Of a stretch of 32,436 nt of DNA, positions 11,251 through 27,574 are shown piece after piece; within the stretch, counting starts at the first letter, position 1; every line of letters starts with the position of its first letter. The notes beneath the pieces are model-generated. The model was not told the origin of the DNA and searched no databases. It saw only the letters and a list, made by a program, of their open reading frames with translations. The stretch is from a virus. The translations under genes and the position numbers were made by a program. The DNA lies in IMG/VR virus record IMGVR_UViG_3300017991_000287, positions 1 to 32,436 of that record; one strand, given 5' to 3'.

Positions 11251-11360
11251 TACCAACCGTACACCGGCGCTGTGCTGCACCCGTTTCCGCAAGCGATAAC
11301 CAAAGCCGCCGCTGCCACTATCACAAACCCAAGCCATGCACCCGTGTCATAGCGCTCCAT
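11250..11360 (-). CDS. Tiny membrane lipoprotein candidate (36 aa)
   Basis: A 36-residue ORF: MERYDTGAWLGFVIVAAAAL, then VIACG and a short tail with a second Cys. Residues 9-23 form a hydrophobic segment and VIAC fits a lipobox (Val, Ile, Ala, Cys). The ribosome site GGGAG lies 7 nt before the ATG. It starts 2 nt after the stop of the preceding gene and its own stop overlaps the XhlA-like start. A Rz1-like outer spanin or a small holin component are possible. Too short for family assignment. Confidence 0.55.
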   Translation of the reverse strand: MERYDTGAWLGFVIVAAAALVIACGNGCSTAPVYGW

Positions 11361-11362: not shown

Positions 11363-11854
11363 CTATTCTCCCTCGATTACATACACCCGCTCGCCAAGCT
11401 CTATCCACAAGGCTAAGAGTTGCGTTGCCTTCGTGAGCCTCAGTATGGCCTGTGGCTCGTTGCCAGCGTCCAGCGACTCCTGCACCTTGCCCTGTATGAA
11501 AGTCATTATCTGCACAAGCTGGCCCTTCTGTACGGGCAGTGTCAGGCTAAAGTCAGCAGCCAAGTCTGCCCACTTCTGCTCTGTGTCGTTCTGTGGAGTT
11601 GGCGGGTTGTCTGCGGTTTTAGTCCATGCCAAAGCTGTAGCGTAGTCAACCGCCTCGACCTGTTGCAGCGTCGGCCTTGCGCCCCATGCAGACTGCCAGC
11701 CGCCCTGTATGCCATCGTCAAAGCTAACTTCTACGCCGCTGGTGTCTTCGGTTACGCCTTGCTGGTCTGCCCAATATCTGACCTGCGGATAAGTCCATCC
11801 AGCGTGTGAGGCTGTTGCCGTAACCAAGAGAATCAATGCCACTAAATGCTTCAT
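11363..11854 (-). CDS. Signal-peptide protein at end of tail module (163 aa)
   Basis: A 163-residue protein with a classical Sec signal peptide, MKHLVALILLVTATASHAG, with cleavage expected after SHA at residue 18. The mature part has a segment reminiscent of tail-fibre assembly proteins (VEAVDYATALAWTK) and a helical C-terminus (KGQLVQIMTFIQGKVQESLD). The ribosome site GGAG lies 7 nt before the ATG. An exported tail-assembly-like protein is unusual; it could instead be a periplasmic or surface protein made late in infection. Assignment is tentative. Confidence 0.65.
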   Translation of the reverse strand: MKHLVALILLVTATASHAGWTYPQVRYWADQQGVTEDTSGVEVSFDDGIQGGWQSAWGARPTLQQVEAVDYATALAWTKTADNPPTPQNDTEQKWADLAADFSLTLPVQKGQLVQIMTFIQGKVQESLDAGNEPQAILRLTKATQLLALWIELGERVYVIEGE

Positions 11855-12450
11855 CGTATAGCTCCCATTATTAACATATTCAAGTTAGTCCAAGAAGAGT
11901 TGCTAATCTTGTACTCGATGACGCCGTTCTCGTCTGTGTATACCCACGGATAATCATGCACAGTATCGCCAACCGTCCTGAACTGGCCCCGATATGTATT
12001 GAAATCGTTTATGTTGCCATTTTGCCTTAGCCTTATAGTGGCTCCTACTGTGCCCTTAAACGCGAAGCGCATGTACACCAATGCTCGGTTAGTTCCAACC
12101 ACGCTGATTCCAGACAAGTCTAAGTCTCTATAAGTGTTATCGGTTGTGAAATCTCCAGGCTCATAATCCCAAGCGGCAGGATCGCCGCGATCATAATACT
12201 GCTGCCCACTAGACGACATCGCCGCCCAGATGTTCGTTCCCGCCACCTCAAGCTGGCCGCTGATAGCGACGCTGCCGGTGAAGGTGTTGGTGTCGCCGGT
12301 GAAGGTTTGGCTATCTGGCAACTGCGCTGCGTTGGTCAACCGCTCATCCTCTGCAACCGTAAGCGAGCTGTCCTGATCGCCGTCCGTAGTGCTGCCTGCG
12401 TAGCACATGGCCGCCGCAAGCATACTAAATATGATATATCGTAATTTCAT
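11851..12450 (-). CDS. Signal-peptide structural-like protein (199 aa)
   Basis: A 199-residue protein. MKLRYIIFSMLAAAMCYAGS is a predicted Sec signal peptide with cleavage after CYA (residue 18); the Cys is not in a proper lipobox. The mature part has Thr/Ser/Asn-rich beta segments (SQTFTGDTNTFTGSVAISG, a tail-spike-like repeat style) and a C-terminal sandwich-like domain (NRALVYMRFAFKGTVGATIR). Composition is typical of phage fibres or spikes. Overlaps the next gene by 4 nt. Confidence 0.65.
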   Translation of the reverse strand: MKLRYIIFSMLAAAMCYAGSTTDGDQDSSLTVAEDERLTNAAQLPDSQTFTGDTNTFTGSVAISGQLEVAGTNIWAAMSSSGQQYYDRGDPAAWDYEPGDFTTDNTYRDLDLSGISVVGTNRALVYMRFAFKGTVGATIRLRQNGNINDFNTYRGQFRTVGDTVHDYPWVYTDENGVIEYKISNSSWTNLNMLIMGAIR

Positions 12451-12457
12451 GCCTGCC

Positions 12458-12835
12458 TCACTTGGTTATGGTGATGGAATAAGTCAGGTTGGTGCTTGTG
12501 CCGTTGCTCACGCTTAGCGTATCGGTAGCAAGCAACCAAAGCTCGTTTTCAGGCCACCAGACATGATCCTGATTGTTGGTCAGCGTCTTGCAATAAACCT
12601 TGTAGACGGTGCTGCCACGAGTCACGCGCACACAAAGCTCGCCAGTATCGGCGCTGTCCAGGTGCACCATCACGTTGGCTATTGAGCCAAGTGCCCCCTT
12701 GTTGTTATTCGTGAAAGTGTTGCTGGATTCTGCCCCCGCGTTTGCCGTGCCCTGCACAATCTCCTTGAGAGGTGCGGCCTGCGCCAACACAGCGCAAAGT
12801 GCGCCCGCGATTACTAATGCTGCCAACTTCTTCAT
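12458..12835 (-). CDS. Small signal-peptide beta protein (125 aa)
   Basis: A 125-residue protein with a clear Sec signal peptide, MKKLAALVIAGALCAVLAQA, cleaved after AQA at residue 20. The mature part is beta-rich (IANVMVHLDSADTGELCVRV, NLTYSITITK) with two Cys that could form a disulfide in the periplasm. The ribosome site AAGGAGAAGAA precedes the ATG. Sits between two other signal-peptide proteins in a tail-fibre position. No family recognised. Confidence 0.65.
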   Translation of the reverse strand: MKKLAALVIAGALCAVLAQAAPLKEIVQGTANAGAESSNTFTNNNKGALGSIANVMVHLDSADTGELCVRVTRGSTVYKVYCKTLTNNQDHVWWPENELWLLATDTLSVSNGTSTNLTYSITITK

Positions 12836-12847
12836 TTCTTCTCCTTG

Positions 12848-14362
12848 TTATAGATTGATGGCCTTGTTTGTCACAAGCCCGCCAGAATAGTAGATGTAGT
12901 TTGTGATAGCCGTGCCGAAACCGTTAGTCTCCACGCCCGTATAGCCCGCTGAGAAGGCCGCACTAATCTCTCGCTGTACTTGACCTAGGTTGGGTGCGTT
13001 GGTGGCTGCTGTGGCGCTAAATACGTTCTTCACATGCATACCAGCGCCGCTTGAGTAGCCCAAGTCGAAAGCCCTGTTTTTGAAGTCGATGGCAACGTAT
13101 CCGGTATTTGTCCCGAAAAACGCAATAAAGCCGCCGTTGCTGTCTCTCAGCAGCGAAATAGAAGGCTCTTGGAAGGTTGTCTTGTCAACGTCTACATCAA
13201 TGTTGATGTTGTTGCCCTTATTGCCAATCGTAAACACAGAGCCGTCGCCAGTGATATCACCAACATTAGTGTATGAGTTTTGGCCGGCATTCCAGTCGCC
13301 AGACTGAGCCACGCTGCCATCTGCGTAGAATACGCCGCTTGTTGATGCTGCCGAAGCATTCTGGTCTACCACGCAGCCCTTGATGTCTATAACGCCATCA
13401 GTAGCGTCTGCAACCAACACCAGCCCGACAAATATTGCCTTGTTAGGTAAACTTGGAGCAGTTGCGGTTAGTGCGCCGGCCGTAGTTGCGGAAATATAGA
13501 GGTTGTCACCAACATTGAATGCGCTTGTATCTAAGCCGCGCACCTTGCCCGCCGTTGAGGATTTGCCCACCGCGCCCACGGCTATGTCCTCGGTGGCAAT
13601 GCCGTAGAAACGCTGCTCAGAGTCGGTGCCGTCGGCTATCATTGGCCGCACTTCAACATTGTCAGTTGGAGCATCAATCGCAATACCCACAAGCGCCTGA
13701 CCGTTGGTTATCACCAGCGCGGTGCCGTTAACTACGTTTTTGTGGAACTCTTGGCCCATCTGCAAGACTGCGCCATCGCAAACCAAGTCCAGCGTCTCGT
13801 CAACAGCATTCCATGATAGTGTCCCCTGCGTTCCAGTGCCGCCGCTAAACTGCATCTCGCCAACGTTGGATATCTTGTTGCTGCCCATGTCTACGTTTCC
13901 GAGCGGTGTAGACAAGTCAAGCGCCCCAGGTGCGCCTGCCGCTGTGCTAGCCACTATATTCCATTCGCCGCCGCCGCTGTAGTATATTCGCCCGCTTGCG
14001 TCACGCAACAGCACCGTGTACCACCAAGCGCCGTCGGTTGTGTTTGTGTTTGTGTCTGTAACATCGAAGTTGATAGTGAAATAGCCGCTTGCAGGGGTCA
14101 CGCTGGCATTGGCAACCGTGACAAAAGCCGCGTTGGTTGCGCTTGGCCCGCCGTAAAAGGTAGCTGTGTGGGTGGCTATGTTGGTGAAGAGCGCCCCACC
14201 CTGCCTGACGTAAACGCGCATTGACGGGTTAGCTCCCTGAAGCATTGTCAAAGCCTTCAGCTCGCGTTCAGGGTATTGCGTATCTACCCGCAGATCGTAT
14301 GTCTGCGCCTGTGTAGAGAGTGCCAGCAGCAAGCACGCGAAAAAGCTATTCAGTTTCTTCAT
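12848..14362 (-). CDS. Tail fibre-like protein with Sec signal peptide (504 aa)
   Basis: A 504-residue protein beginning MKKLNSFFACLLLALSTQAQ, a signal peptide with cleavage after TQA (residue 19). The ATG at 14362 is chosen over a TTG two codons upstream. Residues 20-130 resemble a baseplate-upper-protein-like domain (MRVYVRQGG, ATFYGGPSA, WWYTVLLRDASGRIYYSGGG). The middle contains phage-fibre phrases (TPLGNVDMGSNKISNVGEMQ, GKSSTAGKVRG, NVGDNLYISATTAGALTATA) and the C-terminus is Asn/Thr/Gly-rich beta. By content it is a receptor-binding or appendage protein; the export signal is unexpected for a virion part. Confidence 0.75.
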   Translation of the reverse strand: MKKLNSFFACLLLALSTQAQTYDLRVDTQYPERELKALTMLQGANPSMRVYVRQGGALFTNIATHTATFYGGPSATNAAFVTVANASVTPASGYFTINFDVTDTNTNTTDGAWWYTVLLRDASGRIYYSGGGEWNIVASTAAGAPGALDLSTPLGNVDMGSNKISNVGEMQFSGGTGTQGTLSWNAVDETLDLVCDGAVLQMGQEFHKNVVNGTALVITNGQALVGIAIDAPTDNVEVRPMIADGTDSEQRFYGIATEDIAVGAVGKSSTAGKVRGLDTSAFNVGDNLYISATTAGALTATAPSLPNKAIFVGLVLVADATDGVIDIKGCVVDQNASAASTSGVFYADGSVAQSGDWNAGQNSYTNVGDITGDGSVFTIGNKGNNINIDVDVDKTTFQEPSISLLRDSNGGFIAFFGTNTGYVAIDFKNRAFDLGYSSGAGMHVKNVFSATAATNAPNLGQVQREISAAFSAGYTGVETNGFGTAITNYIYYSGGLVTNKAINL

Positions 14363-14486
14363 TCTCAACCTTCTTTAGTTTCTTTCGCAAGGCTACCACT
14401 TCCCGCCTCATTATGTCAATTGCGTCTAGCCTATCAAGTATCATTGCCTTGACTTCGTTTACCTTTGTTTTTTTGTCGTCTGCCAT
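14346..14486 (-). CDS. Small coiled-coil protein (46 aa)
   Basis: A 46-residue, strongly charged helical protein: MADDKKTKVNEVKAMILDRL, then heptad-like I/L/V spacing through ALRKKLKKVENEE. AGGTGACAC precedes the ATG. It overlaps the start of the fibre-like gene by 17 nt. Possibly a small trimerising or chaperone-like partner of the adjacent tail proteins. No family recognised. Confidence 0.55.
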   Translation of the reverse strand: MADDKKTKVNEVKAMILDRLDAIDIMRREVVALRKKLKKVENEETE

Positions 14487-14493
14487 GTGTCAC

Positions 14494-15087
14494 CTACTTT
14501 TTGGTCTCTTCTCTGCTCCCTGGTGCGTTGATTTGTATGTGAAAGTCTGCCTCTATCAGATAAACTGCGCTGGAGTAATCATTAGCCACGCTGACATCGC
14601 GGGTCAGGCTGCAAATCAGCATATCGCTAACCCCATCGCTGCCAGCGCCACGGTTGCTGTACAATACCTGACCCAAGTCCATGAAAATATGGTCGTCGGC
14701 ACTATCATTTTGCACATCGCGGGTTGCGGTTAGCGTGGTTTCTGCTGGAAAGCTGCCGCCAATGCCTGCCCATGAGTAGGTCATATCAAACTTGACGTTC
14801 TCTGCACCAGCGCCCGCGCCAGAAGTCGGCAAAGTTATATGCACATGAAAGTCTAAATCCAGACCCATTACCAATCCATGCGGCATCTGTGCATTGAAAG
14901 AAACGCTGTTGTCCTGATTACTGGCAAATGATAGCACTATGCCGCCCTTGTAAGCCTGCTCGGTTGCTGGTTGGGCAGTGCCGACACGCAACGCATTGGC
15001 TGGAAACCGCAGGTCATCCCAATAGTAGGAATACTGCTGGAATCGCTCAATCTCTGGATGCCCGTTTGCGCGTCTGCCCCTGCTCAT
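14494..15087 (-). CDS. Phage structural protein, beta-rich (197 aa)
   Basis: A 197-residue protein with a basic N-terminus (MSRGRRANGHPEIERF) and a beta-rich body (LSFASNQDNSVSFNAQMPHG, LDLDFHVHITLPTSGAGAG). The style resembles jelly-roll-like appendage proteins placed next to tail-tip genes. Its start overlaps the stop of the 112-aa gene (ATGA). Probably part of the tail tip or fibre network; exact family not recognised. Confidence 0.65.
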   Translation of the reverse strand: MSRGRRANGHPEIERFQQYSYYWDDLRFPANALRVGTAQPATEQAYKGGIVLSFASNQDNSVSFNAQMPHGLVMGLDLDFHVHITLPTSGAGAGAENVKFDMTYSWAGIGGSFPAETTLTATRDVQNDSADDHIFMDLGQVLYSNRGAGSDGVSDMLICSLTRDVSVANDYSSAVYLIEADFHIQINAPGSREETKK

Positions 15088-15422
15088 TGTGACTCATCCC
15101 TCCAGTGGCTAACCCAATCAAGCTCGTTGGTGGTTACAGCGCCGCCAAGGTATATCTCAATGCGCTCGGTGGTGGAATCCAGCACCATCGGAAACGGGTT
15201 GCTCCAAGCATCGCCTGTCTGCATGGTTATCTTGTCCATTACGCGATCCGTAGGCCCGCCAGTGTCGTGCTTCTGAATAGTAACAACCGCCTCAACCGTG
15301 TCGTTGTTGAATATGTTGAAGCCGCCGATAGGAATAAGCCGGCTCGTGCTTGCCCCCGGCGAAGGTATCACTGTCACATCAGTCGTGCCGTTGCTCGTGC
15401 CGTCAGTGTTTGCCGCTGCCAT
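15084..15422 (-). CDS. Small structural protein (112 aa)
   Basis: A 112-residue protein, Ser/Thr/Gly-rich at the N-terminus and beta-rich in the middle (EAVVTIQKHD, ERIEIYLGGAVTTNELDWVS). It looks like a small virion or baseplate decoration protein. Two bases separate it from the large tail protein's stop, and it overlaps the next gene by 4 nt. No known family recognised. Confidence 0.6.
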   Translation of the reverse strand: MAAANTDGTSNGTTDVTVIPSPGASTSRLIPIGGFNIFNNDTVEAVVTIQKHDTGGPTDRVMDKITMQTGDAWSNPFPMVLDSTTERIEIYLGGAVTTNELDWVSHWRDESQ

Positions 15423-15424
15423 CG

Positions 15425-17530
15425 TCAGAATCCTTGTGCTATTAGGTTTTGAATGTGATCGGTGACTATGGTGCCAGTGAGCAGGTTGGTTTCGCTTATG
15501 ACAATCCCGCCACTAATGCCGTTTTCTGTGTCTATAACCCCGCTTATACCTCTGCGCTTGTAGACTTTCCCCGTGTCGGCGGTGTCTGCCAAATCAAAAT
15601 CACCGTTTCGGGCACCCCAATCGCCCCAAATCTGACGGTTGTCGTAGTCCATTGATAAGTTTGCAAAGCGGTCATAACATATCCGATCTTGCCAATTAAT
15701 CGAAGCGATATTGGTGTCATCATAAAGCTGACGATCCTTCCAACTTGCGGATATCTCTCCAGCATTGTCATAAAGCTCACGGTTGTGCCAATCTATTGAC
15801 TTCTCGTTTTCTTGCCCGTAGCAAGTCCTGGCGTTGCCGCTGCTCGTGTCGTCCCCCCATATTATCGAGGTATCACCGTCCTCGTCGTGCAGCTTTCTTG
15901 GTGTCGGGCTAATGCTCAAGTTGCCGCTGCCGTCCCCAATCACACCAGACATATTGTTGCGAGTTGCAGGCCCGTCGTGGCGTATGTACCTTGCAGGAAG
16001 CTGGTAGGTGTCGCTAGTGTCGCCCCCGACGCTATCACCATCGTGGTCATCATAGCTAAACCTGTGAGCCTCGTGGCTGTGGAGCTGCGAATCAATCCAG
16101 CCGCCCCAATCTGCGCTTGTGTCCATGTTTGCAGTGTCAATCACAAAGCTGTCAGTATTCACAGTCAGATTGTTGAGTTTGACGTACTTGACAGAGACAT
16201 TGCCGCTGGTGGTATCTTTCACCCGCGCAAGAAACTCAAACTTGGCGTCAATATCCTGCACTGCATCGCCGTTTAGCGAGCTGTCAACGTAGTTGGTATC
16301 GTTGAAGCGATAAACCTGCATCTCGCCTTGGTGCTCTGGCACGGTACTATCAGCATAGTGCAGGCTGTATCCGCGCCCCTGTGCGGTGTCTATCGCGTTG
16401 AGGTTGGCGTCAACGGCATCTGGCCGCGTGTAGTAGTCGATGATGGTGCCGCTGCGCTGTGCAGTGTAGCCAAGCACATAGAATACATTTGAGCCGCCAA
16501 AGGTGTTTAGCTCATAGGTGCCTAGCAAGTGCTGGCCGCCGCTGCCTCTGCCCGTCCAGTCGGTTGGCGTGTATTGTGTGTCGTCAGCCAGCTTGATGGC
16601 AAGGCTGTCTGGCACAAGCGCTTTCTCTGGAGTCGTTGACTGAGCCTGTGTGTCGTTTGGATTGACGGTTGCCCACACCTCACCCCTGCCGTAACTGGTA
16701 GCAGCAGCGTTTAGCGTGGTATCACCGAATGATGTTTGCGCCGATGTCAAAAAAGCTGAGTTGACCGCGCTTGGGAAGTATGCGTTGCCCTCCCCTACAA
16801 TCAGAGTTGGCTTGAATTGCCCACCGCTTAGGCTGTAGCTGATGTTTGGAACAAACCCATACTGGCTTGCGCTATCTGGAGTGCTGCCAAGCGCCAGCGT
16901 AGAGCCATCAATGCGCGGCCCTCTGTGCACCTGTGTGATCTGCGTTATCTCGCCAGACTCTAGTATCACTTCAGCAATTGGCAAATACTGACCGCCGCCG
17001 TCCGATCCTGCCGTGCCGTATGGCACCTTCTCGCTTGAGAATATGTATTCCAGACCATTGCCAAAAGTGCTTGTGCTATTCCAGTCTCCGCTTTCCGGTG
17101 ATAAGTCGGTGAAGCTGCCTGAGTATGTTGTGCCACCCGTGCCGAGACTCTCCTTCATCAGCACATAGATGTAAATGTTTCCGGTGTAGGTCGCACCAAC
17201 CGCGCCAAGAGTTATCACGTCACGCGGGTCGGTGCGCCAAGTAGCGATGGCCGGCAGCGTTGATCCGTTCCATATCTGGTTGCGTACCCATACGCCAGGC
17301 CGAATGATCACCTCTCTGGCACTGTACCGGATAACCTGAAACATATTGCTCAGGTAGCCAGACAAGCCTTCTTCATCCAGCACGATTGTCCAGAAGTTGC
17401 CATTGCGCTCAATATGCCCATTCCACACGTCCAGACGCCGCAGAATTTCGTCAACGTCGTTGTACCACTCCGCTGGTACTGCTGTCCCAGGCTCGCCCGG
17501 TCTAAACTTTCGTCTGCCTAGTGCGCCCAT
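15425..17530 (-). CDS. Large tail-tip/fibre protein with C-terminal repeats (701 aa)
   Basis: A 701-residue protein following the tape measure, where tail-tip or fibre proteins lie in siphoviruses. The N-terminus (GRRKFRPGEPGTAVPAEWYN) is typical of appendage proteins that attach to the tail. The middle has beta-rich phrases with Gly and Thr. At about residues 570-650 there are at least four repeats of about 17 residues built on (S/N)(I/A/L)xWxxRxxYD, for example SIDWHNRELYD, SASWKDRQLYD, SINWQDRICYD, SMDYDNRQIWG. Such repeats often form a triple beta-helix shaft. No lambda J-like central fibre is found, so this may be the main host-range protein. Confidence 0.75.
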   Translation of the reverse strand: MGALGRRKFRPGEPGTAVPAEWYNDVDEILRRLDVWNGHIERNGNFWTIVLDEEGLSGYLSNMFQVIRYSAREVIIRPGVWVRNQIWNGSTLPAIATWRTDPRDVITLGAVGATYTGNIYIYVLMKESLGTGGTTYSGSFTDLSPESGDWNSTSTFGNGLEYIFSSEKVPYGTAGSDGGGQYLPIAEVILESGEITQITQVHRGPRIDGSTLALGSTPDSASQYGFVPNISYSLSGGQFKPTLIVGEGNAYFPSAVNSAFLTSAQTSFGDTTLNAAATSYGRGEVWATVNPNDTQAQSTTPEKALVPDSLAIKLADDTQYTPTDWTGRGSGGQHLLGTYELNTFGGSNVFYVLGYTAQRSGTIIDYYTRPDAVDANLNAIDTAQGRGYSLHYADSTVPEHQGEMQVYRFNDTNYVDSSLNGDAVQDIDAKFEFLARVKDTTSGNVSVKYVKLNNLTVNTDSFVIDTANMDTSADWGGWIDSQLHSHEAHRFSYDDHDGDSVGGDTSDTYQLPARYIRHDGPATRNNMSGVIGDGSGNLSISPTPRKLHDEDGDTSIIWGDDTSSGNARTCYGQENEKSIDWHNRELYDNAGEISASWKDRQLYDDTNIASINWQDRICYDRFANLSMDYDNRQIWGDWGARNGDFDLADTADTGKVYKRRGISGVIDTENGISGGIVISETNLLTGTIVTDHIQNLIAQGF

Positions 17531-17839
17531 TTATGTCTCCAGCGTATAGCTATCGTATGAATCAACGTCTTGCACAAACTTGTAACCATCACAGAATCGG
17601 GACGCTTCAATCGCTCTAACTCTTGAGTTGGCATCACCAGCATGGCAGTCAACGGCATTGCTTGCGGCGTCCTGAGTCACAGCAACCCACTCACGAGTCA
17701 GGATGGTGCGCGTGCGTGTGTATGTGCCGATAGGGAAAAAGTAAACACGCTCTTCGATTGCCTGCTTGTCAATCAGGATGCTATTACCCGTTTGCAAGAC
17801 GCCGCCGCTCGTTATCCATGATGTGTCTCTCAGTGCCAT
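17531..17839 (-). CDS. Small tail-region protein (102 aa)
   Basis: A 102-residue protein (MALRDTSWITSGGVLQTGNS) of beta-rich character with two late Cys. It lies between the tape measure and the large tail protein, directly abutting the latter's start, so a tail-tip or hub role is inferred. No family recognised. Confidence 0.65.
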   Translation of the reverse strand: MALRDTSWITSGGVLQTGNSILIDKQAIEERVYFFPIGTYTRTRTILTREWVAVTQDAASNAVDCHAGDANSRVRAIEASRFCDGYKFVQDVDSYDSYTLET

Positions 17840-17846
17840 CGTTGCC

Positions 17847-19811
17847 TCACTTCAATGCTAGCAGAGTGTTGATATTCTTGCGAATCTCTTTCAGCTCGGT
17901 TACCTGGTCGCGCTGTAGCTTCTCAAGCTCCTTGTCAGCCTCTTTCATGTTCTGAACTGCTTCCATCCTGAACATTGCCGCTAGCTTAGCTTTGGCCTGT
18001 GCTTCTTCTACAGCCTCCGCAGCCTCTAGCTTTTTCAGATCGTCTTCTGCCAAGCCCTCCCTGCCACGAATTTTGACCTTTCTCTTGATTCTTGCGATAT
18101 CTTCCTGGTCTTTTTTCTCCTGATTGGCTATTGCTTCTTTTGCCTTCGCCTCTTTGATAAAGTCGGCAATGCTTTTCCGAGCCAGTTCCTCATTCTCTGC
18201 TGCTAGTTCATTTATATTATCAAGCGCGTTCTGGTGTATTTCCCTCTGTCTTTCAGCCTTTTCACGCGCAACATCCTTTACTAGCTTGGCCTCTTTCTTT
18301 CGCAGCTCTTCAATCTGCTTTTCCCGCTCGGCCTTCTCAAGCCTAGCATTGGCTGCGGCCAGCTTCCTTTGCGCGTCGGCTGTTTCTGCAATCGCCTTGT
18401 CTCTAAATGACGCTAGCTCTTCTTGGTTTTTCTTCTCTTCATCAAAACCACTAGAATCAACCTCTACAGGCTCGGATGGGGTTTCAACCATTGTGCTACG
18501 GGCAGCACCGATTGCCTTTTCCCTAAAACGCTCTTTTACCTGAAGCTCTTTCTCTGCCAATGCCACAAGCTGCTTCTCAGCGTCAATCGCATCGTCCCTG
18601 CGGCCATCCTTGCGAGCCTTGTTTACCTCTGCTATCAGGTCTTTCTCTTCTTCAGCTAGCTCCTGTAGCGCCTGCTCGCGCTTCTGCTTCTCTGCTTCAA
18701 AGCTCATCTCCTGCGAGCGCCGCGTGATGCTTTCAACTATGTCAACCTCTATAGAAGGCTGATTCTCTCTGTCCTTCCTGACTTCATCCTCTTTAGCCGC
18801 TACTTCTTCTATTGCGCCCTGCTCGCGCTTTATAGCTTCCTGCTTGGCTTTCCATTCTGCTTCAATGTTAGCCATTCGCTTCTTGTGGCGATCTTCCTCT
18901 ATCTCAACAGCCTTCTTCCAAGCGCCAACAATCGGCATACCCGACTCGGTGCCAGCAAAAAATGCACCTAGCACCCTGAAGAAGTCGCCTGTTTTTTTGA
19001 TACTTGCATTGAGTTTAGCCAGCTCATTGACTCCGTCGCGTGCCCACCGCGCAACATCACCGCCAGTCGTCAGCTCTTTTATCTTGTTGCTTATGTTTGC
19101 GAGCACACCAGCAAGGTCGTCGCCGCCAACTATCGTCTTGCCTATTTCCTCTAGAGCATCGCCTATGCGCCCCTTCAGCTCTTCCCACCTGCCCGCTGTG
19201 GTTGCCAGCTCGTCTGACTGCTGCTTGTAGCCCTTGGCAACAAACTCTGCGAATATAGCCGCCTTTTCCTGCTCTGAGTTGGCGTCACGCAATGCTGGTA
19301 TGTACCGCGTCAGCATACTGAAGTTGCCAGCAAACGCAGCCGACACTGCACGGGTAGCGGTTGCGCCCTCAAGCCCTGCTGACTTCAAAGCGACTACGGC
19401 CTTGGCTGCTGATTCTAGCTGAGTCTCAAGCACACCTAGCGTGCGTAGCTGGGCAAGGTTGGCTATCGTTGCCTCGTCAGCCACGCCTGTCTCATCCTGA
19501 ATCGCGGAGGCAAGCGCCTTGTACTTGGGCATCAGTGCGTCAACGGCCTCACCGTTAGCCCTGAATGCGGCTGCTAGCTGGCGCTCGGCCTGCTCCTGTT
19601 TGGCAAATGCACGAATGGAAACAGCCGCAGCTCCGACAATAGCCCCGCCAATGCCGACAATAGCCCGACTGGTAGCACGCGCAAAGTTGCCGATCCGCTT
19701 GAACCCGGCCACTATCTGCTTACGCATTCGCTGGAATGAGCGTTGTACCGCCTTGATTCCAGCCTTGACCGCGTTCTCCGCCTGTATCCGAATGCTTAGC
19801 TTTTCAGCCAT
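17847..19811 (-). CDS. Tail tape measure protein (654 aa)
   Basis: A 654-residue tape measure. It has a basic helical N-terminus (KAVQRSFQRMRKQIVAGFKR), a hydrophobic Gly/Ala segment (about 50-65, AIVGIGGAIVGAAAVSI) and a TP901-like domain with alternating ALRDA/ATTAGRWEELKGRIGDALEE (to about residue 220). The C-terminal 300 residues are a long charged coiled coil rich in Glu, Lys, Ala and Arg. Length sets tail length in siphoviruses; at about 0.15 nm per residue this predicts a tail of roughly 100 nm. The start overlaps the upstream gene by 8 nt. Confidence 0.85.
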   Translation of the reverse strand: MAEKLSIRIQAENAVKAGIKAVQRSFQRMRKQIVAGFKRIGNFARATSRAIVGIGGAIVGAAAVSIRAFAKQEQAERQLAAAFRANGEAVDALMPKYKALASAIQDETGVADEATIANLAQLRTLGVLETQLESAAKAVVALKSAGLEGATATRAVSAAFAGNFSMLTRYIPALRDANSEQEKAAIFAEFVAKGYKQQSDELATTAGRWEELKGRIGDALEEIGKTIVGGDDLAGVLANISNKIKELTTGGDVARWARDGVNELAKLNASIKKTGDFFRVLGAFFAGTESGMPIVGAWKKAVEIEEDRHKKRMANIEAEWKAKQEAIKREQGAIEEVAAKEDEVRKDRENQPSIEVDIVESITRRSQEMSFEAEKQKREQALQELAEEEKDLIAEVNKARKDGRRDDAIDAEKQLVALAEKELQVKERFREKAIGAARSTMVETPSEPVEVDSSGFDEEKKNQEELASFRDKAIAETADAQRKLAAANARLEKAEREKQIEELRKKEAKLVKDVAREKAERQREIHQNALDNINELAAENEELARKSIADFIKEAKAKEAIANQEKKDQEDIARIKRKVKIRGREGLAEDDLKKLEAAEAVEEAQAKAKLAAMFRMEAVQNMKEADKELEKLQRDQVTELKEIRKNINTLLALK

Positions 19812-20505
19812 TGTGCCGCTTCCTTATCTCTATCGCTGCAATACCCAAGTTGCGCTGTGCTACGATGCAAGGGTCGTTGGGGTCTTTAACGCCCTCACTC
19901 GCCTCGTGCTGTTGGCAAATCACATCTATCATCTTGAGACAATACCGCTGGCTCACCTGGCGCATCCACACATCTGGATCGCCGTGCACCTTGGCGGTTA
20001 GCCACTGCACCAGCTCTTCATACCCGCCGCCGCTGGTATCGCCGTCATCTTCTTTTGGGCGCAAGTCTTGGTTGTCGTCCTTGAGCACCTCGGCAACAGC
20101 CATATTCAGTTCGCCCACGGTGCAGTCTATACACTTCCACCAAGCCCGCACCCGCTCCTTGGCTGTACGGTAGTCGGAAAGCTCGTCAAATGCGCCCTGC
20201 TGCCGGCCATGTGCCAGCGCATAGGCTAACACCGCGTGCTCAAGCTCGCCGTCACCGTCAAACCATGTAACGGCTTCTGTATACCAGCAAGACGCAGCTA
20301 CGGTGAAAGGCCAAAGCCACTGACTACCAAGCCGCACCGGGCGGCCCGCAGGTATCTCACTGCGAGCGCCCGGCTGGTCAACTTTGCGCGCTAGATCGTT
20401 TAGCCAGATCGTTTCATCAAGAGTCGGGGCAATCCCCGCATCCTTCAGACTCGCTATCTCCGCTTCCGCTAACGGGTGCAACAGGTTCTCTGGCATTAAG
20501 CTCAT
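19804..20505 (-). CDS. Protein in tail-assembly-chaperone position (233 aa)
   Basis: A 233-residue helical protein between the putative major tail protein and the tape measure, where lambda G/GT tail chaperones are found. It contains RPVRLGSQWLWPFTVAASCW (about 55-74) and an acidic Gly-rich linker (EDDGDTSGGGYEEL). A 52-aa ORF overlaps its first 89 nt in another frame, echoing the G/GT layout. Start at 20505 is supported only weakly (AAGGCGA). A tail assembly role is inferred from position, not from homology. Confidence 0.6.
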   Translation of the reverse strand: MSLMPENLLHPLAEAEIASLKDAGIAPTLDETIWLNDLARKVDQPGARSEIPAGRPVRLGSQWLWPFTVAASCWYTEAVTWFDGDGELEHAVLAYALAHGRQQGAFDELSDYRTAKERVRAWWKCIDCTVGELNMAVAEVLKDDNQDLRPKEDDGDTSGGGYEELVQWLTAKVHGDPDVWMRQVSQRYCLKMIDVICQQHEASEGVKDPNDPCIVAQRNLGIAAIEIRKRHNG

Positions 20506-20575
20506 TCGCCTTGGCTTCCATCTGTTTTTTCTTGCGCGGCCCTATAACTATCGGGTTTGTGATGATCTCTTTCAT
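20417..20575 (-). CDS. Small overlapping ORF upstream of tail chaperone (52 aa)
   Basis: A 52-residue ORF, MKEIITNPIVIGPRKKKQME at its start and acidic and Cys-containing at its end (SGDSESEGCGDCPDS). It lies just after the major tail protein and overlaps the 233-aa gene by 89 nt. A run of six A (20530-20525, read as AAG AAA AAA CAG) occurs before the overlap; a -2 or +1 slip there would fuse it to the 233-aa frame. The ribosome site is weak (TAGGCT). Either an independent gene or a lambda-G-like partner made by frameshifting. Confidence 0.4.
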   Translation of the reverse strand: MKEIITNPIVIGPRKKKQMEAKANELNAREPVAPVSGSGDSESEGCGDCPDS

Positions 20576-20578
20576 AGC

Positions 20579-21265
20579 CTACATCTTGGTGAGGTTTTTG
20601 AATACCGTGATCGCACCAGTCTCGTAAGCGGTATTCTCTTCGTTTCCGCTAGTGCCCGCGCTCTTTTCCCAGCCGGTATCCTTAGATGCACCAGGTGCGC
20701 CAGCGCAACCAACCAAGTCAGTAGTCGCCTCAACACGCCCGCCGTACACGTTCATGCAGGCAGTAGCGCCCTGAGAGTCTGCTACCTTGGCAACGCTAAC
20801 AGAAGCAGTTGCGCTTGAGCCTGTGACCTTTGTGTTGGTGTCTGCCGTTGCGCCGATAGCTGTGGCCTTGCGGTCGCCACTGATTTCCAAGTCAGACGGG
20901 TCGTACTTTTCCATCGTAGTATCAGCCACGCCATGTGCGAATTCGCCGCTAATCGTAATCGTCGGGCGCTCGGTGTTGCTAGTTCCTACCTCAATGCTGG
21001 TGATAACATTGCCGCCGATAACCTTGCCAAGCCTGAAGTCGGAACCGGATGCCGTATCGTAAAATACGATATTGCCAGTTCCGCAACGCTGGTATGTCGC
21101 GCTGACAGTCTTGTTGGCCGTGTCGTAAACGGTGCTGGCGCTAACATCGCCATTGCTGTCCAAGCACTGCGCCTCGCCACCAACGCTCGGCTCCTCAGAG
21201 CTGCTCTGTATCTGGTTTTTCGTATCCGCGAAACTCCACGGATCGGTTGCTACTCCGTAACTCAT
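20579..21265 (-). CDS. Putative major tail protein (228 aa)
   Basis: A 228-residue beta-rich protein, Thr/Ser/Gly-rich (MSYGVATDPWSFADTKNQIQ at the start, then TVYDTANKTVSATYQRCG and ITSIEVGTSNTERPTITISG), in the slot just upstream of the tape measure where major tail tube proteins lie. Its start overlaps the stop of the sulfotransferase-like gene (ATGA). No database comparison was possible; the call rests on position, size and composition. Confidence 0.65.
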   Translation of the reverse strand: MSYGVATDPWSFADTKNQIQSSSEEPSVGGEAQCLDSNGDVSASTVYDTANKTVSATYQRCGTGNIVFYDTASGSDFRLGKVIGGNVITSIEVGTSNTERPTITISGEFAHGVADTTMEKYDPSDLEISGDRKATAIGATADTNTKVTGSSATASVSVAKVADSQGATACMNVYGGRVEATTDLVGCAGAPGASKDTGWEKSAGTSGNEENTAYETGAITVFKNLTKM

Positions 21266-22461
21266 GATCTTACCTTCCGTTTGTATGTTGTGTGCACATC
21301 AACATTCATTCCTAATGCATCAGATAGTTTGCGGCTTTCCTCCTGCGGATCGCCGTCGTAGTCGTACTCTATCCAACGCAAATCAACATCTTTAGCCCAA
21401 GCCTTGCGCCTGTTGTAAGCCGCAGCACCAGCTTCTTCGCTGCTCACAAATCCGCGCCTCACCCTGCTCTCTGACTGGTTCTTGTAGTCGCGGACGCAAA
21501 GCACATATTTGGCCTCTGGAAATACCTGCTTGAACGCTTCTGGAAACACGCTAACGCTCGGATGCTTGAAGCCCCAAGGCTTGCTTTTCTCTCGCTGCGC
21601 CTTGTACTGCTCCAGATCGTCAATAAGCTCTTGTGTCGGCTTCGGGAAGGGTGCGCCATCTGCCAGCATGTCGTCAAAGTTGGCAACAATAATGCCTTGC
21701 CGCTGGTATTCCCGCTGCATTATCCGCATCATCTCCATGCACTCTTCGTTGTCGTTTACACCCAAGTAGTGCATATCAACGCCCGCCGCGCTCAAGCACT
21801 TAGCAACATGGCTGGTGCCGGAGTGTAGCAAGCCGCCAACGATTACAGGCTCTTCATACTTTGCCTGCCGCCGACGCTGTATCTGCCCGCCAATCATCTC
21901 GCGCAATCCCTTCAGTCCTTCATCGCCGTCTGGCTCCTGGAAGAAGTCGATTGCGGTGCCGCTGAATGCGATTCCCCTGGCGTGCGCCTGACTCAGCCAC
22001 CAAGCCCAAGAGTGCCGCTGCTGCCGGTGCGTCGGGTCGTTGGTGTCAATACCCCAGCTCCGTATCTCGTCAATCGTCTGGCCTTTGTCGTGCTCATAAA
22101 GCGCGTATGCGACCATCAAGCTGGGAGATCCGAGAAAGTAGTTGCAGTTATGGTGGTCAAACACCTCGGCAAAGTCGTAGCGCACCTGATTCTCGATAAT
22201 AGGCAGGTTTTGCCCAACGTACACTGGGCAGCCAAGGCCGTTGAGTGCACTGAAATGGCATTCAACCCCGCTCTTCCATGTGGTGAGGTATTTGTAGTTG
22301 TGCAATTCAAAAAAACGGTCCCACCGCCCCTTGAGCACCGGGTATTTGAGGTAGCCGTTATTCAGCCCCCATACCTCAGTGCCAGAAACGTACTGCATGA
22401 TGTCGTGCCTGCGCTCGCTGCCGCTTGCACCCATACCCATGATCGTGATTTTTCTACCCAT
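21262..22461 (-). CDS. Rossmann-like domain fused to a sulfotransferase-like domain
   Basis: A 399-residue two-domain protein. Residues 1-195 form a Rossmann-like domain with GMGASGSERR, EVWGLNNGYL (29-38) and WDRFFELHN (47-55), a pattern seen in uncharacterised phage enzymes. Residues 205-399 resemble a sulfotransferase: a 5'-phosphosulfate-loop-like GGLLHSGTSHVAKCL (209-223), FKHPSVSVFPEAF, and a 3'-phosphate-binding-like YVLCVRDYKNQSES (319-332). The predicted activity is transfer of sulfate from PAPS to a glycan or other acceptor. The ATG at 22461 has AGGAGG 6 nt upstream and overlaps the previous gene by 8 nt. The position inside the tail module suggests modification of a virion component or of the host surface. 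Confidence 0.7.
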   Translation of the reverse strand: MGRKITIMGMGASGSERRHDIMQYVSGTEVWGLNNGYLKYPVLKGRWDRFFELHNYKYLTTWKSGVECHFSALNGLGCPVYVGQNLPIIENQVRYDFAEVFDHHNCNYFLGSPSLMVAYALYEHDKGQTIDEIRSWGIDTNDPTHRQQRHSWAWWLSQAHARGIAFSGTAIDFFQEPDGDEGLKGLREMIGGQIQRRRQAKYEEPVIVGGLLHSGTSHVAKCLSAAGVDMHYLGVNDNEECMEMMRIMQREYQRQGIIVANFDDMLADGAPFPKPTQELIDDLEQYKAQREKSKPWGFKHPSVSVFPEAFKQVFPEAKYVLCVRDYKNQSESRVRRGFVSSEEAGAAAYNRRKAWAKDVDLRWIEYDYDGDPQEESRKLSDALGMNVDVHTTYKRKVRS

Positions 22462-22933
22462 CTCCGGCCTCCTTTGTGAATAATACAAGCATCGGGCAGG
22501 TCATCTGCCATACTCTCATATCCCCTCCTATTTCCTGATCACTCCTGCGCGGTATAGTCACGCGCTCCAACGATGGATTCTCTGTAGGCCGTATGCGCCT
22601 AATGCCTGTCAACTGGTTCTCTGGTATGGGCAGGTTGTCCATGACGATGCTAGCCATGCGCTGCGCTTCCTCGCGGCTAGTCCATACGCCTTCCAGCATT
22701 CCAAGAAATTCCTTTTCACCGCATGAGCCTGGTGTATTCATGTTGAAATCGAAATCAAGCGGCTGGCCCCCGCCGGTCAGCGAAAACATAAACATTCCAG
22801 CCTCTTCGCTGTACTGGAAATCTTTAGGAAGCTCGCCAATAAAACTGTTTTCCGCGCTGCCTTCCAGTATGTCGCGGAAGAAACCGAGTATGGATGTCTC
22901 AGCGCCTACCCATGATTCTTGCCAGCTTGACAT
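22454..22933 (-). CDS. Tail terminator-like/tail completion protein (159 aa)
   Basis: A 159-residue protein beginning MSSWQESWVGAETSILGFFR. The ATG at 22933 is chosen because it overlaps the upstream stop (TAATG) after AAGGGCGG; an ATG at 22996 would lie inside the preceding gene. Mixed alpha/beta (IVMDNLPIPENQLTGIRRIR, WQMTCPMLVLFT) with the size expected of a tail-terminator or neck protein, and it follows the Gp10-like gene in the usual order. Confidence 0.6.
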   Translation of the reverse strand: MSSWQESWVGAETSILGFFRDILEGSAENSFIGELPKDFQYSEEAGMFMFSLTGGGQPLDFDFNMNTPGSCGEKEFLGMLEGVWTSREEAQRMASIVMDNLPIPENQLTGIRRIRPTENPSLERVTIPRRSDQEIGGDMRVWQMTCPMLVLFTKEAGDG

Positions 22934-23790
22934 TATGCCGCCCTTCCGAGTTTTCCTGCATTGAACTGGTCTGTAAGTCTGTCCAGCCTGCGCCAAAGCT
23001 GCCCAACAATATCCTTGCGCCTCTTAGCCATTAGAGAAGGCAGAAACCGCATGTACTTCTCTGCTGAGTATCCATAAGGGTTGGTAGCCTCAACATAACC
23101 GCTGCCATCTTCATTCATGCGCGGCTTCCATTCGCCTTTCAACCCCTCGGCCTTGCGTACCCATACAGGAGCCTTGCCCTTGGTGTTTACTGCCCTTGCA
23201 ACTTCATCCAGTGGGTGAATCCATCCCGCAGCCAACTCGCCAACTTTCTTTTGCCTGTGCTTCACATACGACCGGAATGCACGTTCTCTAACATGCAGCT
23301 TGTCTACAAACTTCCAGCGTCCAACATCTTTCGTATTGCGACCTTGCTCAGAGCCACCACGCGCCTCAGTAACTCTGCCATCTTTGCGCCTGTATTTTTC
23401 ATGGTGAGGCTTTATCATTCTGCGGTTGGCGGTTGGCTTCCACAGGTCACGGTCAACCCCGTATATTGCGCCTCTACGAGTCTTGAATACCGCTGCCTCG
23501 CTTACAGTGCCTTTGCTCCCGAAAAGCTCATACAGCGTATTTGCTTTAGCAGGTCCAACTGGCACTATGACTTTGCCAATGTCTTTCTCTACGCGCTCTT
23601 TGCCGATATTTTTGTCTATCTTGCTTCCTGGTTTTTTCTTGCGCGGTGGCGAAAACTTTATCATGTCCTGAAGCAGCAGCCGCATCTGATCCTTGACGAT
23701 GAAGTTGACGGGCACACCAGTATTTTTTGCATAGCTCCGCAAAGCGGAATCAATGCTACTGGTATCAACATCTAGGCTTATTTCTATCAT
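22933..23790 (-). CDS. HK97 gp10-like tail completion protein (285 aa)
   Basis: A 285-residue protein with an N-terminus typical of the HK97 gp10 family (MIEISLDVDTSSIDSALRSY, then LLLQDMIKFSPPRKKKPGSK). It carries a long basic middle part and is longer than a typical gp10 (about 150 residues), with an extra C-terminal half ending in RRLDRLTDQFNAGKLG. Located between the head closure protein and the terminator-like gene, as in lambdoid/HK97 phages. Likely helps join head and tail. Confidence 0.65.
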   Translation of the reverse strand: MIEISLDVDTSSIDSALRSYAKNTGVPVNFIVKDQMRLLLQDMIKFSPPRKKKPGSKIDKNIGKERVEKDIGKVIVPVGPAKANTLYELFGSKGTVSEAAVFKTRRGAIYGVDRDLWKPTANRRMIKPHHEKYRRKDGRVTEARGGSEQGRNTKDVGRWKFVDKLHVRERAFRSYVKHRQKKVGELAAGWIHPLDEVARAVNTKGKAPVWVRKAEGLKGEWKPRMNEDGSGYVEATNPYGYSAEKYMRFLPSLMAKRRKDIVGQLWRRLDRLTDQFNAGKLGRAA

Positions 23791-24101
23791 CAGATTCTCT
23801 GAAGCTGTAATGAAACAGACACGCCATCCTGTCCGCGTAGCTGGCTCTGAATGTAATATTTCACGCCGTCAACCGTAACCACTGTGCGGTTATCGGGAAG
23901 CGTGCCGCCGTCAAAATCGTCAACACTAGCCACCAGCTCGAGGTCTACATTTCTATAAATCCCCTCTTCAGCAACATCATCCTCTAGGTTTCGCTCGCTG
24001 CGCGTGGCCGTGATAGTCTGAGCGCCCCATACAAGCGTACAAGGCAAGTCAGCTATCATGTAGTCCAAGTCGGCCTGCAATGCTGTGATGTCTAGTGCCA
24101 T
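23790..24101 (-). CDS. Head-tail connector / head closure protein (103 aa)
   Basis: A 103-residue protein with a short helix then beta strands (CTLVWGAQTITATRSERNLE, NRTVVTVDGVKYYIQSQLRG, VSVSLQLQRI), the shape of small stopper or closure proteins in lambda gpFII or HK97 gp7 position. It starts a few bases after the terminator at 24105-24138 and abuts the gp10-like gene. Confidence 0.6.
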   Translation of the reverse strand: MALDITALQADLDYMIADLPCTLVWGAQTITATRSERNLEDDVAEEGIYRNVDLELVASVDDFDGGTLPDNRTVVTVDGVKYYIQSQLRGQDGVSVSLQLQRI

Positions 24102-24104
24102 AGT

Positions 24105-24138
24105 AAAAAAGGCGGTTTGGGTTGCCCCGCCCCGCCTT
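24105..24138 (-). terminator. Intrinsic terminator after the 80-aa gene
   Basis: The minus strand reads AAGGCGG (24138-24132), an inner GGG-CAA-CCC element, CCGCC (24115-24111) and then TTTTTT (24110-24105). This is a good rho-independent terminator, placed between the 80-aa gene and the head closure gene with only a few bases before the next start. Confidence 0.75.
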
Positions 24139-24145
24139 CAGGTTG

Positions 24146-24388
24146 TTAGTCCTTGTCGGCTTTCGGCTTTGCCTTGGCCTTCGGCGCAGAAACCGGGGGC
24201 ACCGCAAACTTGATACGCTTGCTGCCTGGCCCGCTCTCCATGTAAACGGCTCTGGTGTATTTGCCGTCGCCATTCTTGGTCTTCAGCTCTTTGTAAAGAG
24301 CCTTCTGGTCGCCTGCCTGCATACCAGGAGTCGCCAGCGTTTCCCAAGTGCCGTCAACTTTTTGTGCCATGACTACTGCTAGTCTCAT
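24146..24388 (-). CDS. Small basic-tailed head protein (80 aa)
   Basis: An 80-residue protein, MRLAVVMAQKVDGTWETLAT at its start, ending in an Ala/Lys/Pro tail (SAPKAKAKPKADKD). The ATG at 24388 follows AAGGAG with ideal spacing. It sits between two terminators (24403-24431 and 24105-24138), directly downstream of the capsid gene. A capsid decoration or head-tail protein is likely from position; a basic tail could contact DNA or capsid. No known family recognised. Confidence 0.65.
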   Translation of the reverse strand: MRLAVVMAQKVDGTWETLATPGMQAGDQKALYKELKTKNGDGKYTRAVYMESGPGSKRIKFAVPPVSAPKAKAKPKADKD

Positions 24389-24402
24389 GATCAACTCCTT
24401 CG

Positions 24403-24431
24403 AAAAAGGGGGCTGGGCTAACCATGCCCCC
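24403..24431 (-). terminator. Intrinsic terminator after the capsid gene
   Basis: On the minus strand GGGGGC (24431-24426), a 12-nt loop, GCCCCC (24413-24408), then TTTTT (24407-24403). It lies 14 bp after the capsid stop codon and just before the ribosome site of the 80-aa gene. It probably limits readthrough so that capsid mRNA exceeds that of the genes behind it. Confidence 0.8.
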
Positions 24432-24444
24432 TCGGTTTCTATGG

Positions 24445-25401
24445 TTAGGCGCTTACGATGCGCTTGAGTGCTTCGGCCTGGCCCTTGGAAGCGCCGTAAA
24501 GCGTTTCGAAGGTGTGGTAAACCTTGCCGTAGTTCTCGCTGTACCATGCGCGGTAAACAAGCGTAGCACCCGTAACTTCGTCAGTCATAACCTCATAGGC
24601 CATGAGCTGCTCAGGAGCTTGGGCGCGCACTGCACGCATAGCAATAGCGATACCAGCGGGCTTTGCAACAAAGCCAGTCAGATTCTCACTTGCAGGGGTT
24701 CCACCAGACGGGGGCAGCGTCGGGGCGCTGACTACGCGGAAGCGGTCAACCTGGTAGCGGTCAAGATCGCCATTCTGGACAACCGGAAGACCGGAAGCAC
24801 TCAAGTCCTGGATAGCGCTATCCTTCTTCAGTGCGCCAACGTAGGAAGGCTTCAGGACAAGGCTTTCCTCGCCCATGAAAGACCACTTGCTAGACTCTTC
24901 CAGGCTGGTGCCGATGTCCACCACGTCGTCCATGTCAAAGTTAGCCGCCGTGCCAGTGTGCACTGCCGCGCCAAAGTTGGCGTTGGTGATGAGGTTGAAA
25001 ACATAGTCCATCATGTGATCGGCAACGGCGTAAGCCTTCTGCGTGATCAGCTTGTTGCGGGTATCTTCCCAGACGCCGCGCCCGATTTCGTGTGCTTCCT
25101 CGTCAGTCAGAGAGAAGCCAGCGATAGGCTGCTGGTTGAGTGTAACCGCCACGGTCGTGGTCGTGATGTCTTCAATGACGTTAGCATCTGCACGGTTGCC
25201 TGTGTCGGCTGTGCCAGTCTGCAAATCAACCGCGGCCTGCGATACAGGGACTATGCGGGTGTTTACGACGGTGCCTTGATCAGCCAAGTCAGAGCTGAAG
25301 TCGGTTGTGAACACGCCCATTGAAATCAAGCGTGCGTTGAACGCCCGGAAGCCAGCCCGTGCGATGTTCGTGAAGGTCATTCCATTCCATGTGTTAGCCA
25401 T
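24445..25401 (-). CDS. Major capsid protein (P22/HK97-fold)
   Basis: A 318-residue protein. The ATG at 25401 is chosen because AGGAG lies upstream and because MANTWNGMTFTNIARAGFRA is a typical P22-gp5-like start (a longer version at 25479 adds a non-conserved tail). It includes SLTDEEAHEIGRGVWEDTR, WSFMGEESLVLKPSYV and an Ala-rich C-terminal region (GFVAKPAGIAIAMRAV), as in HK97-fold capsids. Position after protease/scaffold and head fibre supports the call. It is followed by a strong terminator, in line with the high copy number of capsid protein. Confidence 0.85.
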   Translation of the reverse strand: MANTWNGMTFTNIARAGFRAFNARLISMGVFTTDFSSDLADQGTVVNTRIVPVSQAAVDLQTGTADTGNRADANVIEDITTTTVAVTLNQQPIAGFSLTDEEAHEIGRGVWEDTRNKLITQKAYAVADHMMDYVFNLITNANFGAAVHTGTAANFDMDDVVDIGTSLEESSKWSFMGEESLVLKPSYVGALKKDSAIQDLSASGLPVVQNGDLDRYQVDRFRVVSAPTLPPSGGTPASENLTGFVAKPAGIAIAMRAVRAQAPEQLMAYEVMTDEVTGATLVYRAWYSENYGKVYHTFETLYGASKGQAEALKRIVSA

Positions 25402-25439
25402 TTTCTCTATCTCCTGTGTGTGGGCTTTTGCCCGATTTG

Positions 25440-26003
25440 TTATGGTGTGTATACTTTCAGCGTGCCAGAATCGCTCCAAACGGTGCCAGAGGCCAATCCG
25501 CTTGTGGCTGTCGGAAGCCCTGAAAGAATGATTGCATTGCCGATGGCTGTCAGGTTGCTGATGGATAATGCTCCGTCAGTATCTGTGTATGCGCCATCAT
25601 TCATCGTCAGTCCCTCAACTACGACACCGGATGTGCCCTTCTCGCTGATGGTGTCAACGCTGATACTGCCGTTAGCCGTAATGTTGCTGATGGTCATTGT
25701 TCCATCTGCGTCACTGTAAGCGCCCTGAACCTTGGCCGCGTCAACCACGCCATCCACTGTCACGATGACATTAGTGGTTGCGCCGTTGGTGCTGATCGCG
25801 GTCAGCGTGCTTGTTATCGTGAGGTCTGCATAGCTTGGGCTTGATCCTGATTCCACCTGTGCAAAGTTGGCGTCGATAGCCGCGTATGCCTTCGGAATCT
25901 TGGTTTTGCCGTAGTATTGCGGGCTGTTGATGTCAGTAAAGCTCTGCGCCATTACAACGCCGGCCACCAGGCTCAACAGTGCCGCCAGTGTCAACTTCTT
26001 CAT
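25440..26003 (-). CDS. Head-fibre-like protein with Sec signal peptide (187 aa)
   Basis: A 187-residue protein with an N-terminal signal peptide, MKKLTLAALLSLVAGVVMAQ (cleavage after VMA, residue 19). The mature part is Thr/Ser/Gly-rich with repeated stretches of the type GxYxDxDGxxxISNxTA (AYSDADGTMTISNITA, AYTDTDGALSISNLTA). The C-terminus GLPTATSGLASGTVWSDSGT matches the phage head-fibre/decoration style ending. It is immediately after the protease/scaffold stop and before the capsid, where head fibre genes are found. A signal peptide on such a protein is unusual. Confidence 0.75.
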   Translation of the reverse strand: MKKLTLAALLSLVAGVVMAQSFTDINSPQYYGKTKIPKAYAAIDANFAQVESGSSPSYADLTITSTLTAISTNGATTNVIVTVDGVVDAAKVQGAYSDADGTMTISNITANGSISVDTISEKGTSGVVVEGLTMNDGAYTDTDGALSISNLTAIGNAIILSGLPTATSGLASGTVWSDSGTLKVYTP

Positions 26004-26579
26004 TTAGTCTTCCTCTCCTTCTGCGCGTTCGCGCATCTCTGCACGGATAGCCGCCTCGTTCTCGTTCCAGTAAGTAGTCGCCTCGCCGCGTGTCTGCGGG
26101 TCAGACTGCAAGCCCCAATAGGTTTCCAAGTGAGAAACGTCTGCGCTCTCGCTGTGGGTGCCCTCTTCAGAAGCGCCAGTTTCAACCGGCTCGGACTCGC
26201 CGCCAATAGCCGCGTCAGCGTAGGCAGGGTTTGCAAGCGCCTGTTTTGCCGCTTCCAGCTCTGTCTCTGCTTCGTCCAGCTCTGCCTGCATGGTTTCCAG
26301 CTCATTCTGCAAGCGGCTGATTTCGTCGGACTGCTTGGCAATCTCGTCATTCGCTTCCTGAAGCGCAGCAATGTGGCTACCAGCCTTGTCGCGCTCCTGG
26401 TCTTCCATGTCTGCGATCTGCTGGTGCAGCGCGGCAATCTCGATGTCACGGGTGCCAGCTTCGCCTCTCGCTTCCTCAAGAGCCTTCTGCAATTCGGCAA
26501 TGCGATCTGCAAGCGGACTCTCAGGCAGCTCTTCTTGCACTTCCAGCTCTTCAGCCGGAGTCTCTACCTGTTCGCTCAT
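26004..26579 (-). CDS. Nested scaffold protein (191 aa, internal start)
   Basis: Internal in-frame ATG at 26579 (MSEQVETPAEELEVQEELPE) preceded by AAGGAG with a 5-nt spacer. The product is the 191-residue coiled-coil C-terminus of the protease gene, with the charge and shape of capsid scaffolds. The arrangement is that of lambda Nu3 inside C. Predicted role: assembles inside the procapsid and is removed by the protease. Confidence 0.75.
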   Translation of the reverse strand: MSEQVETPAEELEVQEELPESPLADRIAELQKALEEARGEAGTRDIEIAALHQQIADMEDQERDKAGSHIAALQEANDEIAKQSDEISRLQNELETMQAELDEAETELEAAKQALANPAYADAAIGGESEPVETGASEEGTHSESADVSHLETYWGLQSDPQTRGEATTYWNENEAAIRAEMRERAEGEED

Positions 26580-27236: not shown

Positions 27237-27339
27237 CGTCCTCGCCTTTCGTTTCAATCTCGCACCACACATTAGCCTTCAGCCGGTCGCGGTTGCGTAT
27301 CTGCTCTAACTGCTGAGTTATAGAAGGCTCAACTATCAC
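27184..27339 (-). CDS. Possible small ORF between joining protein and protease (51 aa)
   Basis: A 51-residue ORF with a GTG start at 27339 overlapping the upstream stop region, reading ITQQLEQIRNRDRLKANVWC and an acidic end (GEDDEQDRDQ). It overlaps the protease start by 53 nt. It fills an otherwise empty 90-bp gap and its first 33 residues look like a real helical protein. Ribosome site GAGGCAGA is moderate. Uncertain. Confidence 0.35.
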   Translation of the reverse strand: MIVEPSITQQLEQIRNRDRLKANVWCEIETKGEDDEQDRDQGRYCPSRLRH

Positions 27340-27574
27340 TCTCTGCCTCTGTCTCTGCCGCTGGTTCTACACCATCTCCTTCAGCCTTCAGCGTTATGGG
27401 CTTGCGGATGCCATCAGTTGACGCCCAATCTGCTATGACGCCTTTTGACATAACAGGAAGCCCCATCAACTTACGCACCTCTGCCTCATCCTCTTGCTGT
27501 GGCGTAATCACACCAGCTCGAACGCCAACGCCGTATGCGTCCAGAATCGTTTTGACCTGTGTTATGTCAGCCAT
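27329..27574 (-). CDS. Small protein after portal (81 aa)
   Basis: An 81-residue protein, MADITQVKTILDAYGVGVRA at its start, with a segment ITPQQEDEAEVRKLMGLPVM resembling C-terminal parts of portal proteins, then an acidic tail (AETEAESDS). It overlaps the portal's 3' end by 13 nt. It may be a detached portal C-terminal region or a head-completion protein. Confidence 0.6.
   Translation of the reverse strand: MADITQVKTILDAYGVGVRAGVITPQQEDEAEVRKLMGLPVMSKGVIADWASTDGIRKPITLKAEGDGVEPAAETEAESDS

Follow-up and report, generated by a model that had tools for sequence, protein, structure and literature searches.

The assembly of tailed phages takes place inside the cell, with virions finished in the cytoplasm, so export signals on proteins expected in the head or tail coat are odd. 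Phage-encoded export signals occur in spanins, SAR endolysins and the phage lipoproteins Bor and Cor, whose targets lie in the host envelope, and the filamentous phage proteins pIII and pVIII are virion proteins with cleavable signal peptides. The known decoration and cement proteins are, to our knowledge, made and added in the cytoplasm and have no signal peptide. A search by title and abstract of mainly open-access literature returned no case of signal peptides on tailed-phage structural proteins.

The window, as we call the entire stretch of DNA analysed, is the whole IMG/VR viral record IMGVR_UViG_3300017991_000287 (32,436 bases). Its genes, about 40 by reading of the ORFs, are coded on the minus strand, and its head module is lambda-like: terminase, portal, ClpP protease with a scaffold-like part, the gene at 25440-26003, and major capsid protein (MCP). 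Among 50,697 phage records the only relative of this MCP is that of Verrucomicrobia phage P8625 (28.8%), which is presented as the first lytic phage of Verrucomicrobia (PMC4642752). The family of uncultured tailed phages described below perhaps infects Verrucomicrobia-like bacteria, a lead drawn from sequence relationships; two scans of genome contigs found no host.

Signal-bearing genes of the window

The first-pass annotation had described Sec-type starts on five ORFs, and all five are present on the minus strand, at the coordinates given there and with N-termini as it described (Table 1). Each has the Sec type I form of basic start, uncharged core and small residues at -3 and -1, as scored with a rule-based caller. 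Some opposite-strand ORFs of the window also score, and were not read as genes. The placing of four of the genes in a tail-fibre/lysis region was loose: they do lie beside the fibre module, with two small genes on the other side (11032-11337 and 10568-11116) that by reading are a possible lysis cassette.

The caller was checked on a 49-kb stretch of E. coli K-12, where it called five of six proteins known to bear signal peptides and none of 33 others. Residue-shuffled window N-termini score in 2% of cases, which gives the caller background, and some calls are clearly false, e.g., on terminase N-termini. When 28 signal-peptide genes from the window and related phages were pooled, 26 passed, versus 13% of arrangement shuffles; most of the 28 had been chosen with the same caller, so the comparison says that residue order matters and does not give an unbiased rate. 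Every one of the 26 called signals has alanine at -1, a residue that the caller itself favours. One independent sign of export is missing, since Lys and Arg are not depleted after the cleavage site (0.079 in the first ten mature residues, 0.051 in the rest).

A purine-rich stretch precedes all five window starts. Shine-Dalgarno-like sites are good for 25440 (gaaggagagg, a ribosome-site-like stretch upstream of its signal) and 12458, and partial for 12848, 11851 and 11363. The start of 12848-14362 was taken as the ATG at 14362, with a TTG also present at 14368. For 11363-11854 the caller cuts after residue 15 and our reading by eye after residue 18.

By reading, 12848-14362 appears to be a BppU-like tail fibre; it weakly matches phrog_1084 (E 0.0013), a family of unknown function, and a model of its fibre domain (pLDDT 48.5) was too poor for fold search. 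Its middle domain matches phage zth2-2, which shows no such signal-bearing system. No relatives were found for the other three tail genes, and homologue evidence is confined to the head gene and the fibre. Elsewhere in the tail module, the second half of 21262-22488 contains a sulfotransferase-like domain (Sulfotransfer_3, E 2e-6) and its first half matches L062 12622-13218. A tandem repeat of period 18 and about 10 copies occupies window 1-184.

Table 1. Positions of the genes and predicted signals in the window, with one set of ORFs from related contigs
Feature	Position	Strand	Remarks
Head accessory fibre-like protein (family A)	25440..26003	minus	Between prohead protease/scaffold gene and MCP gene; predicted N-terminal Sec signal peptide
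Predicted signal peptide of 25440-26003	25947..26003	minus	MKKLTLAALLSLVAGVVMA, cut before QSF
Mature start of 25440-26003	25839..25946	minus	Motif SFTDINSPQYYGKTKIPKAYAAIDANF; kept by L014, L015 and L062, whose signals diverge
C-terminal tag of 25440-26003	25443..25523	minus	SGLPTATSGLASGTVWSDSGTLKVYTP
Tail-fibre-like protein	12848..14362	minus	Predicted Sec signal peptide; signal-bearing homologue in L062
Predicted signal peptide of 12848-14362	14306..14362	minus	MKKLNSFFACLLLALSTQA, cut before QTY
125-aa protein	12458..12835	minus	Predicted signal peptide 12776-12835, MKKLAALVIAGALCAVLAQA, cut before APL; no confirmed relatives
199-aa protein	11851..12450	minus	Predicted signal peptide 12397-12450, MKLRYIIFSMLAAAMCYA, cut before GST; no relatives found
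163-aa protein	11363..11854	minus	Predicted signal peptide about 11801-11854, MKHLVALILLVTATASHA, cut before GWT; no relatives found
Major capsid protein (MCP)	24445..25401	minus	phrog_283; clade-defining; without signal peptide
ClpP-type head maturation protease, then scaffold-like coiled-coil part	26004..27272	minus	
Lambda-family portal protein	27562..29202	minus	
Terminase large subunit, GpA type	29995..31848	minus	
Glycosyltransferase-like ORFs of related contigs	L015 9539; L016 8486; L061 9915 and 12402; L064 9312; L066 9578; L108 1419 and 3893		

The head slot and its homologues in related phages

Related contigs (designated by L numbers) were gathered by terminase search, which gave the first four relatives, and then by MCP search. 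Viral scans with the window MCP, portal and fibre proteins as single queries found nothing, and with the fibre domain as query L062 was the sole hit. Where the MCP of a contig is 40% or more like that of the window, one or two signal-bearing ORFs lie between scaffold and MCP. The signal form is present in 18 of 18 genes in this slot, from 10 contigs: 17 belong to nine contigs of the MCP tree and the other to L068, which has a broken MCP frame. Near-copies are left out of this count, L066_A is included although one Glu makes it fail the strict caller, and the start of L064_A was set by its signal. The nine contigs are monophyletic on the MCP tree (100/100 support), requiring one change of label. 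No signal gene was seen between scaffold and MCP in the outer contigs inspected, including that of the isolated Verrucomicrobia phage P8625; one outer-contig call, at 2.94 for the L086 scaffold ORF, is weak. At a score of at least 4, signals were called for 18 of 172 near-clade genes, compared with 18 of the 1089 outer-set genes. Leaving out the window, for which the 42 genes of our own gene list were subtracted, about 13 of 130 near-clade genes call (P = 5e-6 versus the outer set). Within the clade, the MCP, portal and terminase proteins have no signal calls. At the level of sequence, the signal-peptide form is conserved and is restricted to one clade.

Two families recur in the head slot. 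In family A the signal is followed by an N-terminal DANF/NANF motif; family B proteins have about 140 residues. For both families and the fibre, identity is 25–33% over the signal cores and 39–58% over mature residues 1–35, a contrast that is only indicative because the cores are short and of limited alphabet; it fits a signal segment kept for form rather than letters. The AlphaFold2 model of family B (pLDDT 77) is mainly beta, with weak PDB matches to the KHP40 cement protein, a Pam1 capsid chain and many unrelated beta proteins. Family B did not match window 12458-12775 or 15084-15422. Even cysteine counts were seen in some mature proteins, too few to use.

Some members have signal-free homologues. 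L108 3432-3911, with a signal, is 39% identical to L015 9164-9535, without one, and L016 6170-6730, with a signal, is 31% identical to the signal-free gp07 of Nipunavirus JG054, whose gene adjoins that of the Nipunavirus major head protein; in neither pair does the comparison give a direction of gain or loss. The fibre 12848-14362 and L062 18134-18794 are 45% identical over the first 134 mature residues, and both have signals, unlike each other. L108 9054-9797 has a signal and, by reading only, a fibre-like domain, with a 19% alignment to the window and L062 fibres. The homologue comparison bears out the signals of the first-pass annotation where relatives exist, the head-gene signal being kept across the clade and the tail-fibre signal in L062. 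Its view that repetition of the signals exceeds chance likewise holds, both on that conservation and on the finding that these five are the only minus-strand ORFs of the window to score.

Proteins from 12 other phage loci (L006-L008 being near-copies) also end in the C-terminal tag of 25440-26003, and the starts of those proteins show no signal peptide by eye. This tag, LPTSxSGLxSGTVWSDSGTLKI (window 25443-25523; L002-L013), ends several unlike phage proteins, and may serve them as a common piece for docking or capping. The signal carriers had been taken as structural-module proteins, and they look so by their scaffold/MCP slot, the shared C-terminal tag, the fibre-type tail gene and the Nipunavirus-related member. 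On gene order the head-slot genes resemble those of decoration proteins, lying beside MCP in a conserved position.

Several further features of the related phages were observed. The structural module of L067, a sister-clade phage, has signal-like ORFs at 7636-8331, 12333-13040 and 13037-14968, the last failing the strict caller. The type of prohead protease seems to vary in the clade, being ClpP in the window (26004-27272) and, by reading, S49-like in L063 (5275-6123). ORFs read as glycosyltransferase-like (motif CDxxLFIDDDMVF) adjoin the head-tail completion genes of the clade.

Possible fates of the signal-bearing proteins

We give about equal belief and doubt to the following reading: that these are working Sec signals on accessory virion proteins, which are exported and dock on virions at lysis, in a phage that is otherwise ordinary and lambda-like. 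The accessory proteins would be tail fibres and, on the head, decoration or fibre proteins. Late in infection they would be exported by Sec and cleaved, and would wait in the periplasm (if the host has two membranes), with shell, portal, tail and packaging proteins remaining in the cytoplasm; lysis would then join cytoplasm and periplasm and allow docking onto finished virions. Export, cleavage, virion membership and docking at lysis are all steps that we infer. The lipobox flag of the caller was false for all five window proteins and no outer-membrane anchor was seen in them; surface display would on this account seem less likely than a periplasmic stay followed by docking. Given a two-membrane host, proteins with no outer-membrane anchor would wait in the periplasm until lysis, which favours docking at that time. 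We are somewhat doubtful of a two-compartment virion, in which the packaged core would be made in the cytoplasm and would receive a Sec-exported accessory coat on head and tail either in the periplasm or on lysis, the coat consisting of otherwise ordinary virion proteins that have been given export signals.

The signal-peptide form would also suit proteins that are exported and never enter the virion, acting within the periplasm or at the surface of the host, e.g., in receptor masking or phage exclusion; fibre-type proteins could bind receptors, and other phages have exclusion proteins that bear export signals. We consider this unlikely, because the genes occupy head and tail module slots, the family A C-terminal tag is common to other phage proteins, L016 6170-6730 has a relative encoded beside the Nipunavirus major head protein, and no outer-membrane anchor was seen. 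Since one or two of these genes adjoin scaffold and MCP, the hydrophobic N-terminus might instead be no export signal, serving as a capsid or tail anchor or as a capsid-targeting peptide cut by the prohead protease; T4 internal proteins have cleavable targeting peptides. That would be quite surprising given the same signal form on tail-module genes, the signals that stay where the protease type seems to vary (window ClpP, L063 S49-like by reading), and the basic start, short core and AxA-like end, which fit Sec and in which residue order matters.

Uncleaved signal peptides can serve as anchors, and the signals could on that account tether the proteins to the inner membrane, where heads and tails would be decorated. 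The short cores and the alanine at -1 in every called case point to cleavage, with the reservation that the caller favours alanine, and we regard tethering as improbable. Chance resemblance or misplaced start codons could draw on the caller background of about 2% and its clearly false calls. Recurrence at one slot across the clade and the purine-rich upstream stretches speak against this, no internal start with a ribosome site common to the family was found, and we find such an origin very hard to credit.

If the signals work, as docking at lysis supposes, part of a tailed-phage coat would be made beyond the inner membrane, against the rule of completion in the cytoplasm. A direct test is within reach, given the clade, its neighbours that lack the signals, and the pairs in which only one homologue bears a signal.

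Comparison with known systems

P8625 resembles the window in its related MCP, similar genome size and head gene order, and differs in that none of its 52 genes has a signal call and its protease and MCP genes have no other gene between them. Decoration and cement proteins such as lambda gpD and those of KHP40 and Pam1 are small beta proteins encoded beside MCP, and the family B model is weakly similar to them. Nipunavirus gp07 (phrog_11997), the homologue of L016 6170-6730, has no signal in JG054, and the window has no member of that family. The likeness of the clade proteins to pIII and pVIII lies in the cleavable signals predicted for them; filamentous phages assemble at the membrane, whereas the phages of this clade have tailed-phage head genes. 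Unlike spanins, SAR endolysins, Bor and Cor, the signal genes of the window stand in head and fibre slots and were flagged for no lipobox.
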